DNA of 32,742 nucleotides, from positions 1-32,742 of IMG/VR virus record IMGVR_UViG_3300027736_000143; one strand, written 5' to 3'. The notes beneath the pieces are model-generated. The model did not search any database, had not been told where the DNA came from, and was given only the letters and a program-made list of their open reading frames with translations. The DNA is from a virus. Shown here piece by piece: positions 1 through 8,407 of the stretch. The translations under genes and the position numbers were made by a program. Position 1 is the stretch's first letter. Each line of letters begins with the position of its first letter.

Positions 1-620
1 TTTGCTCTACCATTTGGTCGACCAATATAAACAACTTTCTTCATTTTTCCTGGGTGGAAGGCATTGCATAGCATACCAGCATCCATAGGATAATCAACAA
101 CACGAGCACCATCGGGCACCTTTAAAGTTTTCGCAACTTCACTTGTATTAGTTGCATTTGCAGCAATAGTCCAACGAGACCAGTCCTCATTGGGTAGCAA
201 TTCCCACAAGAAAGATAGGTCAGGGTCATCATTAATAAAGATGATACGACCCTTGTGTTCGTTAATCATCTCTACAGTTACATCCCAATACTTCTTGTAG
301 AACTGAATGTTTGTACCACCGAATTCAAGAATCAAAACGTCGACTGGCTTATAGACGCTGCTAAATTCAACCCCCTCCGCCTCGGTCTGGTCAGTAGGTT
401 GAGATAGAAGAGCAATATTATAATTGTTGTCTAGCAATTTCTTGAAGAGAGCAACTCGCTTCTCTACCCAAGCGCCACGGACGCCATTCTCATTGTCTGT
501 CAAGCCAACCTTACCAGATACTCGGCGATAGCCAATAGTTTTGCCCGTATTGCTGGCATTCTTATCTGTATACCAACTAAGAGCAGCCTCTTCGCCAAAC
601 AAAGATCCCAATAGACTCAT
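1..620 (-). CDS. Putative DNA glycosyltransferase, T4 beta-glucosyltransferase-like (partial, 3' end cut off)
   Basis: The visible part is 206 residues from an ATG at 620; the C-terminus lies beyond the window edge. Upstream GGAG gives a good ribosome site, and only 14 bases separate it from the preceding dioxygenase stop, so the two are co-transcribed. The layout resembles the N-terminal half of T4 beta-glucosyltransferase as I recall it: a hydrophobic strand VDVLILEFGG, a conserved-looking IIFINDDPDLSF segment (compare the T4 YYLFTDIRLPF region), then VVDYPMDAG and KKVVYIGRPNGR near the domain junction (compare DVIYGGSFRSGQR). The expected role is transfer of a sugar from a nucleotide sugar to a hydroxymethylated base in phage DNA. 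The pairing with a TET/JBP-type enzyme supports this. The GT-B assignment comes from motif layout only; a glycosyltransferase acting on a surface or other target cannot be excluded. Confidence 0.55.
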   Translation of the reverse strand, partial: MSLLGSLFGEEAALSWYTDKNASNTGKTIGYRRVSGKVGLTDNENGVRGAWVEKRVALFKKLLDNNYNIALLSQPTDQTEAEGVEFSSVYKPVDVLILEFGGTNIQFYKKYWDVTVEMINEHKGRIIFINDDPDLSFLWELLPNEDWSRWTIAANATNTSEVAKTLKVPDGARVVDYPMDAGMLCNAFHPGKMKKVVYIGRPNGRA

Positions 621-634
621 AATATAATCTCCAA

Positions 635-1993
635 TTATTCGAACAAACTATCTATGGTCGATTCCTTATTATACGCCTCTGGATGGTATTTGTCAAGCAT
701 TTCACGACCACCATTTTTCTCAAGGTAATCATACCATTCTTGGCTTGACCACATACCTTCGCTGATACCGTTCCAAAGTTTACGCTGCATAGGGTGTTCT
801 TTGTTCTTACGACGATACTCTACGAAGTTGAATCGGCTGTTCTCGTATTCATACGAACCTAGTTCAAGCATCTTCTCGCGAAGATAACAAACGAGACTAA
901 TGCGCTCACCATCGTCATAAGTTTCGATTGGCGTATTACCGTGCATAATTTCATGGTTGTTTACAAGAAGAAGATCGCCTGGACGAACATTAACAGCGAT
1001 ACGATACTCAGGGAATACAAGATATCCACCAGTATACTTTCCGTTGTTAGAAAGAACAAGAAGATTGCTCAAACCTTCCGTGAAGTCACCAGCGTCGCGA
1101 TGGCAAGCAGTACGGAATGTCTTATTGACGGTGACTGTGGTAAACACAGTCTTGGGTACTAGGAATCTTGGGTCAACCTTATCTGCTGCTGCCCTTTGGT
1201 TTCCCCATCGCCAAGGAAGAAGTTTCTTATATCCCTTATCCAAAGACTGTAGGAATGGGAATGACATCTTAAACTTGTCATAATGGTTTTGCGTATAGGC
1301 AGTAGCACGACCATAAGGAATGCGCGGATAACGGTCAAACCATCCAGCAATGCCAGAGTTTACCACGTTTGCATAGGTTGTATCTGAAATATAAGTTTCT
1401 TCGATACCACGAGCCTCTTCTTTACGCTGCGTAATTGTCATCTTGACAGCCTTGGCTAGCCACTTGTCAAAATTAAACTTATCTTCTTTGACTTTAGCGG
1501 AGAGCCAAACTAAACCACGACTATCCCCACCGCTCGCATACTTCTCTTTGAGGAATTCAACTTCTTTCTTGATATCTAGTTTGACAAGAGTATTTTCAGG
1601 CTCTTTCTTAAAGAGGTCAAGAACAGCAAGTTGAAATTCTGTCACCCACTCGCGACCACCACATTTGTCGCCCTTCGGTCCAGCGGCAAGTCCACGGTTC
1701 TGGGTTTGTGTTGCTGCTTCGCGCAAACCAAGATATGCTTGTTCTTGTTCTTCTTTGCTGAAGAAATTCTTTCTAAACTTGAACGCAATCTTGCGCTCAT
1801 CCTTGGTATTCTTTTGCTTACACTCTGCGCAATTACCTTCTTCGCAAGAAGCAAGCATTGTAGGATCGCATTCTGCTTTTTGATAGCAGTCCGTATCCTC
1901 TTCGATAAGAACGTCATAATGAGATTCATCAACGAATTGCCCAAGCAATTTTTCGCAATCAATCTTTTCTCTTGCTACAATAACTTTAACCAT
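635..1993 (-). CDS. TET/JBP-family 2-oxoglutarate/Fe(II) dioxygenase (probable 5-methylpyrimidine DNA hydroxylase)
   Basis: 452 residues. The C-terminal half has the double-stranded beta-helix signature of this superfamily: an HxD iron motif at H298-R-D300 (ACHRDAGD), a glycine-rich GGYLVFPEY strand, GDLLLVNNH, the distal iron histidine H351 in MHGNTPI, and a 2-oxoglutarate-binding arginine R364 in ERISLVCYLR. TET/JBP enzymes oxidise 5-methylcytosine or thymine in DNA; phage members are known to act on 5-methylcytosine together with glycosyltransferases. Residues 36-58 contain five cysteines (C36, C42, C50, C55, C58), a possible metal-binding module. Residues 115-290 probably form family-specific helices. 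The start is the ATG at 1993, preceded by a perfect AGGAGG and a consensus promoter. A glycosyltransferase follows in the same operon. Family assignment is fairly firm; the exact base modified is inference. Confidence 0.75.
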   Translation of the reverse strand: MVKVIVAREKIDCEKLLGQFVDESHYDVLIEEDTDCYQKAECDPTMLASCEEGNCAECKQKNTKDERKIAFKFRKNFFSKEEQEQAYLGLREAATQTQNRGLAAGPKGDKCGGREWVTEFQLAVLDLFKKEPENTLVKLDIKKEVEFLKEKYASGGDSRGLVWLSAKVKEDKFNFDKWLAKAVKMTITQRKEEARGIEETYISDTTYANVVNSGIAGWFDRYPRIPYGRATAYTQNHYDKFKMSFPFLQSLDKGYKKLLPWRWGNQRAAADKVDPRFLVPKTVFTTVTVNKTFRTACHRDAGDFTEGLSNLLVLSNNGKYTGGYLVFPEYRIAVNVRPGDLLLVNNHEIMHGNTPIETYDDGERISLVCYLREKMLELGSYEYENSRFNFVEYRRKNKEHPMQRKLWNGISEGMWSSQEWYDYLEKNGGREMLDKYHPEAYNKESTIDSLFE

Positions 1994-3991: not shown

Positions 3992-4027
3992 CAATAGAAA
4001 AAACTCTAATAAAATCAACGACTTACG
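3992..4027 (-). repeat. 36-base element upstream of the AAA+ gene, copy A
   Basis: Nearly identical to 7759-7794: 34 of 36 positions match, including an uninterrupted 27-base core. On the minus strand it starts in the last codons of the haloperoxidase gene and ends 65 bases before the AAA+ start. It contains TTGATT, a 16-base gap and TATTGT, which could serve as a promoter. A second shared patch, CTTTTCAG, follows about 10 bases further on. Confidence 0.8.
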
Positions 4028-5316
4028 TGCGCCCCAAAAAGAGCCTCAGATTTGCGCCAAACCTGCTCGCCAATCTTCTTGCCCATGTGTCTTGCGACAA
4101 GATCGCCATCCTCAAAATGGATACCACCGTATCGGCGGGACATACCTGCCTCATCAGCGGCTTCCGTAAATGTGCGCCAAGAAAGAGTTACGCCATTCTT
4201 ATCAACGAAATACTCAAACTTATCGCTTTCAGTAAACTCGCGAAGAACAACAGCAGCTGCAGCACTGAACGTACTGTGACCTGAAGTGTATTCTGCAAAC
4301 GGTGGCGTCAAGAAACTATCTGGCTGATAAGGCTTCCAATTAGCGCCATCAACAAGAACGCCATTCACACCCTCAATCGTTTGACCTGCATACAGGTAGC
4401 GGATTGCAGTAATCGGGCGAACAGAGTCATACGTTACCTTTGTCGCCCAGCAACCAATGCTAGCATCTAGCAATGCATTGCCAAGAGCAAAGAACATCTT
4501 AGCATCTTGGTCGGTGGTGTGATTGTCTCGCTTAGAAACAACTTCCGCAAACAAAGTCCAGTGTCCAGGAGGCAACTCAGACTTCGGTCCGTCAGCCCAA
4601 TACTCAGCGATTGCCTTCTGCTTATCTGTTAGATTAGCAGTAATGTTTACAATCTCTTGAGCCTGATGAATGAATCGAGTAGACCCAAACTCTGCTGGTG
4701 GCTTAGGAAGAAACTGCGTTGCGCTTGTAAGAGCAAACGGAGTCACGTTCTTCCAGTGTGGAGCAACAAACCTTTGACCAGGCAAAGGTTGCCAGTGATT
4801 AACGTCAGCAACATAAGTTGGCGTATTGACAGGTTGGTATCCAGTAGTATCGGCATATCCGTTTAACTGGTTCGAACCGTCAGTGTGGCGATATGAAAGA
4901 ACTGCACCACATGCCTTTTTGGCGATATCAGCAGCACCAGTATCATTCTCGGAATATCCAAGAGAAGTCAACTTCTGCTGAAATTGCGCCCTTCGGCTTG
5001 GGTACACATCTGACAGAGCCATGAATGCAGCGTGGCTGATTGCCTCTCGCTTGTTGGCTTCCGTTCGTGCACCTTCAGGCTGACGCAAATCATCACCGTA
5101 CATAGTACCAAGAGCAGCGTTGTCATATGCAGCCCAAGCATCATAAATGCAGGTATGCACAATAGCAATCGCTCGAGCAGTCATCGGCGGTCCTGGCTTC
5201 GTATCGCGAATTGCCTGGAGCATCGTTTCATTCCACTCAACCGAAATAGTATCGGCGACTGCACTTCCAGAACTAGCCAAAAGTACAGCCGCCACAATCG
5301 TCTTTAAATTAGTCAT
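4015..5316 (-). CDS. Secreted vanadium-dependent haloperoxidase / PAP2-superfamily enzyme
   Basis: 433 residues with a clear signal peptide: a hydrophobic run IVAAVLLASSGSAVA ending in an AVA-D cleavage site near residue 21, so the product should reach the periplasm or medium. The vanadate-pocket residues of vanadium haloperoxidases are in order: K293 and R300 (KVTYDSVRP, seven apart as in fungal chloroperoxidase), S345-G346-H347 (YTSGHS) and R394 with H400 (RRYGGIH, six apart). These enzymes use peroxide to oxidise halides to hypohalous acid; the same pocket in PAP2 acid phosphatases hydrolyses phosphate esters. Length and spacing fit bacterial haloperoxidases. GAGGGG precedes the start. It sits between the two halves of an AAA+/VWA pair. 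The choice of haloperoxidase over phosphatase activity is inference. Confidence 0.85.
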   Translation of the reverse strand: MTNLKTIVAAVLLASSGSAVADTISVEWNETMLQAIRDTKPGPPMTARAIAIVHTCIYDAWAAYDNAALGTMYGDDLRQPEGARTEANKREAISHAAFMALSDVYPSRRAQFQQKLTSLGYSENDTGAADIAKKACGAVLSYRHTDGSNQLNGYADTTGYQPVNTPTYVADVNHWQPLPGQRFVAPHWKNVTPFALTSATQFLPKPPAEFGSTRFIHQAQEIVNITANLTDKQKAIAEYWADGPKSELPPGHWTLFAEVVSKRDNHTTDQDAKMFFALGNALLDASIGCWATKVTYDSVRPITAIRYLYAGQTIEGVNGVLVDGANWKPYQPDSFLTPPFAEYTSGHSTFSAAAAVVLREFTESDKFEYFVDKNGVTLSWRTFTEAADEAGMSRRYGGIHFEDGDLVARHMGKKIGEQVWRKSEALFGAHVSR

Positions 5317-7758: not shown

Positions 7759-7794
7759 CAATAGAAAAAACTCTAATAAAATCAATAACTTACG
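7759..7794 (-). repeat. 36-base element upstream of the VWA gene, copy B
   Basis: Direct repeat of 3992-4027 with two differences. It begins in the last codons of the deformylase gene (stop at 7790) and ends 52 bases before the VWA start. The possible promoter hexamers are TTGATT and TATTGC with a 16-base gap. With copy A it brackets the haloperoxidase and VWA genes. Confidence 0.8.
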
Positions 7795-8407
7795 CAAGCC
7801 CCTTATTTTGGAGCAACAAAGCAGCCTTTTCAGCCTGTTCTTGGGTGACTCTACCCATCTTCTTGAGGTTCTTCTTTACCTTTGATTTGGCTTGGTCGAG
7901 TTTAATTTTGCTAATCTTATCGGTGAATCTAATACCGTCTAAGTGGTCGATCTCATGCTGAACACAAACAGCACTTAGCCCGTCAAACTTCTGCTCAATA
8001 AACTCACCGCCCATAGCCTGGAAACGAACAGTAACACTACTTGCTCTAGGAACTTTAATGTATAGTCCAGGAAGAGATAAACAACCTTCTGTAAATGTGG
8101 CTGGGATATAAGAGCGATCAATAATTACTGGATTGAAAAGAATCCAAATTTTATCGCCCATGTTAATCGCGCAAACTCTTTTGTTGATACCGCATTGATT
8201 CGCGGATAACCCAAGACCCTCATACTTACCAAGCGTTTCAGCCAATGAGTACCCAAGCACTTCCGCTTCTCTTCTTGCGTTTTGCATATTAAAATCAAAT
8301 GGCTCTGTTGGTTTGCCTAATACATCGTCATAGTAATCGACCAGCTTATAGACCTCATACTCAACCATGGACCCATTTACGAATTTAATCATTCTAGACA
8401 TAATCAT
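7790..8407 (-). CDS. def: Peptide deformylase
   Basis: 205 residues. All three deformylase motifs are visible: GLGLSANQ (64-71), EGCLSLPG with metal ligand C109, and QHEIDH with H151, E152 and H155. The enzyme removes the N-formyl group from nascent proteins. Phage copies are known in marine T4-like phages and are thought to support rapid synthesis of phage-encoded proteins. The C-terminal 35 residues (lysine-rich, then QEQAEKAALLLQ) extend past the catalytic core and resemble the helical tail of bacterial enzymes. The start ATG at 8407 overlaps the gene 46 stop in ATGA, so translation is probably coupled; ATGs two and five codons further on are possible alternatives. Confidence 0.93.
   Translation of the reverse strand: MIMSRMIKFVNGSMVEYEVYKLVDYYDDVLGKPTEPFDFNMQNARREAEVLGYSLAETLGKYEGLGLSANQCGINKRVCAINMGDKIWILFNPVIIDRSYIPATFTEGCLSLPGLYIKVPRASSVTVRFQAMGGEFIEQKFDGLSAVCVQHEIDHLDGIRFTDKISKIKLDQAKSKVKKNLKKMGRVTQEQAEKAALLLQNKGLA

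Follow-up and report, generated by a model that had tools for sequence, protein, structure and literature searches.

In the base J pathway of kinetoplastids, a TET/JBP oxygenase (JBP1 or JBP2) hydroxylates the base, and a glucosyltransferase then places a sugar on the new hydroxyl. In phages, operons in which a TET stands beside a glycosyltransferase of the TAGT family (PF20691) were predicted by Aravind and co-workers in 2013, who proposed that phage glycosyltransferases associated with TET/JBP enzymes act on 5-hydroxymethyluracil (5hmU), as cited in PMC4111573. Phage TETs that act on 5-methylcytosine (5mC) were described by Burke in 2021, and in such cytosine clusters, to go by PMC12730594, which cites this work, oxidation by the phage TET and glycosylation likewise follow replication. 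Phage T4, in contrast, makes hydroxymethyl-dCMP before replication through gp42 and also encodes a DNA beta-glucosyltransferase (BGT). A further system is the thymidine hypermodification of phages M6 and PaMx11.

The locus described here lies in a phage record and joins a TET/JBP dioxygenase gene to a second gene, which we call GT1. It shares with base J formation the TET/JBP oxygenase and, in our reading, the transfer of a sugar to the new hydroxyl, with thymine as the favoured base; unlike base J formation, it is a phage pathway held in a single operon, and its transferase, whose activity is predicted, would have the BGT fold. In relatives, the position that GT1 has here, behind a TET of this kind, can be filled by TAGT, whereas GT1 does not match PF20691 and has a predicted GT-B fold like that of T4 BGT. 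Phage operons of TET and glycosyltransferase are thus known or predicted, and what is new is the GT1 family, its linkage with TET and the evidence for thymine. Neither a BGT-like GT1 family, nor its near-fixed bond with TET, nor evidence for thymine in this TET group was found in the open-licence literature. The reading that we favour, and hold to be fairly probable, is a post-replicative hypermodification of the base J type, in which TET makes 5hmU from thymine, GT1 glycosylates it and a HAD-type phosphatase-like protein helps.

The record and its phage

The window, by which we mean the whole stretch of DNA analysed, is the complete viral record IMGVR_UViG_3300027736_000143 (G000), a genome fragment of 32,742 bases. 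It comes from a T4-like environmental phage and has genes for the major head protein, portal, tail sheath, terminase and UvsY, besides a late sigma factor and a pair of SbcC/SbcD-like nucleases; judging from its relatives, the full genome of the phage is probably about 140-200 kb. Among its other genes is a phage peptide deformylase (7790-8407, minus strand; PF01327, 1e-35), and phage DLP6 likewise has a peptide deformylase annotated directly 3' of its TET. The gene for a vanadium-chloroperoxidase-like protein (4015-5316, minus strand; DUF6851 1.5e-27, VCPO_2nd 8.6e-9) is flanked by genes for a MoxR-type ATPase and a peptidase-like protein, and a tblastn search of 50,697 named phage records gave no match to it at E 1e-3.

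A TET/JBP dioxygenase with TET enzymes as nearest folds

The first gene of the operon (635-1993, minus strand) encodes an Fe(II)/2-oxoglutarate dioxygenase of 452 residues. Its membership of the TET/JBP family, proposed in the preliminary description, is confirmed by the Pfam profile Tet_JBP (PF12851; E 2.2e-25, 89.2 bits, above the cut-off of 34.9) and by phrog_24024 (E 1.5e-168). The motif residues named there are also in place: the HxD motif H298-R-D300 (codons 1094-1102), His351 (941-943) and Arg364 (902-904), all on the minus strand. An alignment of 50 rows that includes the window's protein (A1) shows no variation at H298, D300, H351 or R364. As in other members of the family, His351 would be the distal iron ligand and Arg364 the 2-oxoglutarate binder. 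The predicted model (pLDDT 88.8) agrees with this placement, since the 16 best rows of a VIA structure search are all TET2, NgTet1, CMD1 or CcTet (Z 17.3-20.5; for TET2, Z 20.5 and rmsd 4.5 over 269 residues), and the first non-TET structure, ALKBH3, follows at Z 14.3. Searches of the PDB turned up no JBP oxygenase sequence or structure for comparison. The TETs of phages DLP6, Cr30, S-CBWM1 and HTVC112P are annotated as 'SNF2 DNA repair protein', a misleading label apparently inherited from JBP2. The TETs of Caulobacter phage Cr30 and of DLP6 have about 50% identity, while that of S-CBWM1 is more distant.

The same structures bear on the choice of base. NgTet1 is a 5mC enzyme, and the TETs that head the structural list have been studied on 5mC, CcTet also on 6mA; the listed rows hold no thymine enzyme, and the residue five places after the HxD histidine is Asp in most TET rows, as in NgTet1. 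These features speak for a cytosine route, in which 5mC made by the host or by an unlinked phage gene would be oxidised by TET to 5hmC and then glucosylated by GT1; host-made 5mC could indeed serve the enzyme. Taking the methyltransferase and neighbourhood evidence below into account, we consider this route unlikely, while giving it appreciable weight.

GT1 is predicted to fold like T4 beta-glucosyltransferase

GT1 starts at position 620 on the minus strand, 14 bases after the TET stop, a spacing already noted in the preliminary description, and the gap (621-634) contains a GGAG ribosome-binding-like site for GT1. The reading frame (3-620) runs off the end of the record, so that the window holds only the N-terminal 206 residues of a protein whose full-length homologues have 304-347, a truncation that the preliminary description does not mention. 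One such homologue, of 343 residues, is encoded by contig L080 (2907-3938) and is 95% identical across the 206 shared residues. For GT1, Pfam, PHROGs, NCBIfam and the PDB sequence and profile searches named no family; weak rows for interleukin-2 and SufI were taken as chance. GT1 has no match among named phage records, including Cr30, DLP6 and S-CBWM1, none to the TAGT profile PF20691 at E up to 1, and no significant BLASTP match to CDS0067, which neighbours the TET of phage C48C1. T4 BGT itself receives a probability of 0.6% in hhalign, and the two proteins share 14-15% identity on structural superposition.

The predicted fold is more telling. For the L080 model (pLDDT 86.6), T4 BGT (1j39) is the best Foldseek match, with E 6.9e-9, and in VIA-align it reaches Z 21.9 and rmsd 3.4 over 294 residues, the next protein being TarM at Z 17.7. 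In a sequence alignment at about 15% identity, D100, R191, R195 and R269 of T4 BGT (sequence from AF158101) align with D138, R207, R211 and R279 of L080, four catalytic-type residues that are conserved across the GT1 family; MAFFT (three settings, one seed alignment) and hhalign agree on the pairing of D138 with D100. In the window the first three of these L080 residues correspond to Asp132 (225-227) and to the two Arg of R201-P-N-G-R205 (6-20), both on the minus strand, the Asp and the two Arg being invariant in the GT1 alignment (A2). We take Asp100 of T4 BGT to be catalytic and Arg191, Arg195 and Arg269 to bind phosphate. Two further residues of T4 BGT are unmatched, Glu272 falling on His282 and Glu22 on Lys60 of L080. 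On the strength of the predicted model, GT1 is most likely a GT-B glycosyltransferase resembling T4 BGT. The likeness that had been suggested from segments of the sequence is therefore right by the predicted fold of L080, and the sequence tools used here show none.

That the nearest fold belongs to a 5hmC enzyme counts for the cytosine route. However, a BGT-like fold does not decide the base, because T4 BGT accepts not only 5hmC but also 5hmU, the latter when it lies in a single strand or a mispair (PMC4111573).

GT1 is coupled to TET and to a HAD-type gene

Gene neighbourhood ties the GT1 family to TET. Our set of 82 GT1 loci comprises the best 80 of 86 profile-scan relatives and two more, and a TET lies within the fetched stretch at 77 of them. 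It stands directly 5' of GT1 at 63, and in 59 of those 63 the two genes are -4 to 9 bases apart. As for the five loci without a TET, two contigs are cut inside GT1 (L090 and L163) and a third starts 106 bases before it (L158); L089 and L166 have several kb of upstream sequence without a TET, and the rest of both contigs (for L166, all but 147 bases) has none either. Downstream, a HAD-type phosphatase-like gene follows within two genes of GT1 at 68 of the 75 loci that have a downstream gene, and L089 too has such a gene after GT1 (43% identity), which the gene picker had overlooked. Three architectures recur: a TET of about 430-470 residues, GT1 and HAD; a ParB-like gene, a TET of about 290-325 residues, GT1 and HAD; and a ParB-like gene, GT1, HAD and a TET of about 266 residues. 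Many loci are near-copies of one another, and the counts are thus not counts of independent events. The coupling of the two genes, and with it the operon of TET and glucosyltransferase-like gene as first described, is borne out, and GT1 is supported as a near-dedicated partner of TET.

This linkage also weighs on a different reading, in which GT1 and HAD would glycosylate a glycan, lipid or protein and the neighbouring TET would be incidental. GT-B folds are common, and the fold lists continue after BGT with enzymes that do not act on DNA, such as Gtf3 and TarM. On the other hand, BGT stands 4 Z units above other structures, and a TET accompanies GT1 at nearly all loci and in several gene orders. 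We regard this as the least probable of the readings considered here.

Which base is modified, and when

A cytosine methyltransferase had been predicted elsewhere in the genome. The search with PF00145 was negative in three sets of 22, 39 and 45 records and in the window's own record. Five of the 45 repeat earlier records, so that 102 distinct records with a relative of this TET or with GT1, the window's genome fragment included, gave no match; 99 of them have the TET in view and 11 are of at least 139 kb. The same search was positive in 10 of 14 control genomes. For the window alone the test is weak, because the genome is incomplete and a methyltransferase could lie outside the 32.7 kb; most of the records, too, are fragments, which weakens every absence. 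The prediction is thus not borne out in this group, which differs in this respect from the Burke-type clusters, and the result argues against the cytosine route.

The contrast is weaker than these numbers suggest, since a lack of PF00145 is not confined to this TET group. Among 35 records with small TETs, PF00145 occurs in four, each of which belongs to the 11 most diverged (L250-L271). The remaining 24, which are those nearest to P12024L and its kin, lack it as well; they include L189, a second record of phage P12024L, which also stands among the earlier records as L101. The four positive records favour a cytosine route to some degree: in one of them, L251, a TAGT-like gene comes right after the TET, an arrangement that would fit cytosine as the base of TAGT. 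None of the four has GT1 in the stretch examined. More generally, cytosine is the established base for phage TETs that occur together with C5-methyltransferases and glycosyltransferases (Burke 2021, as cited in PMC12730594).

The timing of the modification can be approached through the thymidylate synthase/dCMP hydroxymethylase family (PF00303), the search for which does recover T4 gp42. A member was found in one of 22 records (Cr30) and in one of 45 (L089), and neither gene adjoins a TET-GT1 pair. Because such genes are so rare and never stand beside the pair, oxidation would take place after polymerisation and not before it; the proposal of a post-replicative modification, unlike that of T4, is thereby supported. 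The Cr30 protein has the uracil-type Asn, a position that serves as a rule for the base preference of these synthases (PMC8670742).

A pre-replicative source of hydroxymethyluracil has nevertheless to be weighed. ThyX is present in 14 of 22 and in 3 of 45 records, and with the Cr30 synthase counted beside it, 15 of the 22 have one or the other, which we also count in favour of thymine over 5mC. The Thy1 homologue gp130 of phage SP-15 was hypothesised to be a hydroxymethyluridylate synthase (PMC5977210), and by analogy a phage ThyX might make hydroxymethyluracil before replication, leaving TET to another task such as further oxidation or action on RNA or host DNA. But GT1 is tied to TET at 77 of 82 loci, and ThyX is found in only those 3 of 45 GT1 records; moreover, the hydroxymethylase-like gene of L089, described next, stands in for a missing TET, as if the two were alternatives. 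We consider the ThyX route very unlikely.

L089 is a contig of 28.5 kb in which a GT1 of 40% identity is followed by HAD, a PF18723 protein ('5-hmdU DNA kinase, helical domain', HMUDK_hel; E 1e-40), a synthase homologue and a dCMP deaminase-like gene, the last 37% identical to that of L080. The synthase homologue is closest, among phages, to those of PaMx11 (50%) and phi_M6 (45%), and its residue at the uracil-type position, aligned in register with both, is Asn; in PaMx11 the PF18723 gene immediately precedes the synthase homologue, and in phi_M6 it lies two genes ahead of it. M6 is reported to be a 5-hmdU phage (Lee 2018). L089 thus joins GT1 and HAD to the M6 and PaMx11 type of thymidine hypermodification, whereas the window's lineage has a TET instead: among 40 records, HMUDK_hel is found only in L089, M6 and PaMx11, and in none of the other 37. 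L166, the other TET-less GT1 locus with upstream sequence, has no PF00303 match. Since a uracil-type hydroxymethylase-like gene is present where TET is missing, L089, on which the argument rests as a single contig, points to 5hmU as the acceptor of GT1, and the same association of GT1 with 5-hmdU genes speaks against the cytosine route.

Taken together, the preliminary proposal of a 5-methylpyrimidine that is oxidised and then given a sugar holds in respect of the TET, the BGT-like transferase, their coupling and the timing; its 5-methylcytosine version does not fare as well, given the missing PF00145 and the uracil-type genes of L089. The evidence points to thymine and 5hmU as a more likely base than 5mC.

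Exchangeable second steps behind related TETs

Behind related TETs, the second step is represented by GT1, by TAGT, by a Glycos_transf_1 protein (F20) or by an ADDT set. The latter consists of a GATase_6 glutamine amidotransferase, an amidoligase-like protein, an acetyltransferase, ADDT (PF18724) and a P-loop kinase-like protein, the amidoligase-like and kinase-like matches both lying under Pfam's cut-off. ADDT, the 'amino acid:DNA transferase', and the kinase-like gene occupy the place of GT1 in other TET relatives; ADDT is present in 10 of 22 records, and 376 named phage records, including 162 of Salmonella, contain a homologue. Such phages are reported to carry modified thymine. By this and by its company in Pfam, thymine would be the substrate of ADDT.

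Across 79 loci with at least three genes after TET, a count that includes duplicates of one contig, ADDT occurs alone at 38, F28, F32 or F20 alone at 35, both at one (Cr30) and neither at five. Strict exclusivity between glycosyltransferase and ADDT was considered and given up, as the separation is not clean: besides Cr30 and the five loci with neither, six of the ADDT loci have F49, which is Glycos_transf_1-like just under Pfam's cut-off. On a tree of 61 TETs, the cassette labels need 20 changes, where the least possible is 5, and GT1 alone needs 8, at least 6 of them forced by starred branches; these counts, from 61 rows and a quick method, are rough because long branches meet.

Among the small TETs of about 270-300 residues (L250-L273), a ParB-like gene precedes the TET at 23 of 24 loci, ADDT lies within the next genes at 7 and a TAGT-like gene at one; the same second steps therefore recur beside other TETs. 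Some neighbourhoods contain further candidate genes. In phage C48C1 (L004, 7353-9385), the TET is followed by an unnamed protein of 344 residues and then by a UDP-galactopyranose mutase, as might be expected if the DNA carried galactofuranose. S-CBWM1 has TAGT and a gene annotated as glucose-1-phosphate thymidylyltransferase. In L040, L045, L046 and L003 (Cr30), TET and ADDT have inositol-1-phosphate synthase-like genes nearby, a hint that inositol may be part of some modified base. For DLP6, 18 restriction enzymes have been tried (PMC5349666).

A proposed pathway and its implications

The favoured pathway builds on the protein families, the predicted folds, the conserved catalytic-type residues, the gene linkage and the absence of PF00145 from the records searched. 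First, TET would hydroxylate the methyl group of thymine in replicated phage DNA, giving 5hmU. Second, GT1 would move a sugar from a nucleotide sugar onto the new hydroxyl, and the HAD phosphatase-like product would aid the reaction, perhaps by acting on the donor or on a base phosphate. The pathway would end in a base J-like nucleotide, which would hide the DNA from host nucleases. In the wider form of this proposal, to which we give slightly better than an even chance, a phage pathway of the base J type would have a thymine-directed TET at its centre and exchangeable cassettes behind it (GT1, TAGT, other GT-B proteins, or a kinase with ADDT), each leading to a different bulky thymine.

The window's TET is thus a specific and testable candidate for a thymine-directed TET in phages, and TET and GT1 could both serve as reagents for labelling 5hmU. 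If the proposal is true, thymine-directed TETs would exist outside kinetoplastids, and phages would possess a modular way of changing their DNA coat. Swapping cassettes while keeping the dioxygenase would account for quick changes of the phage DNA mask.
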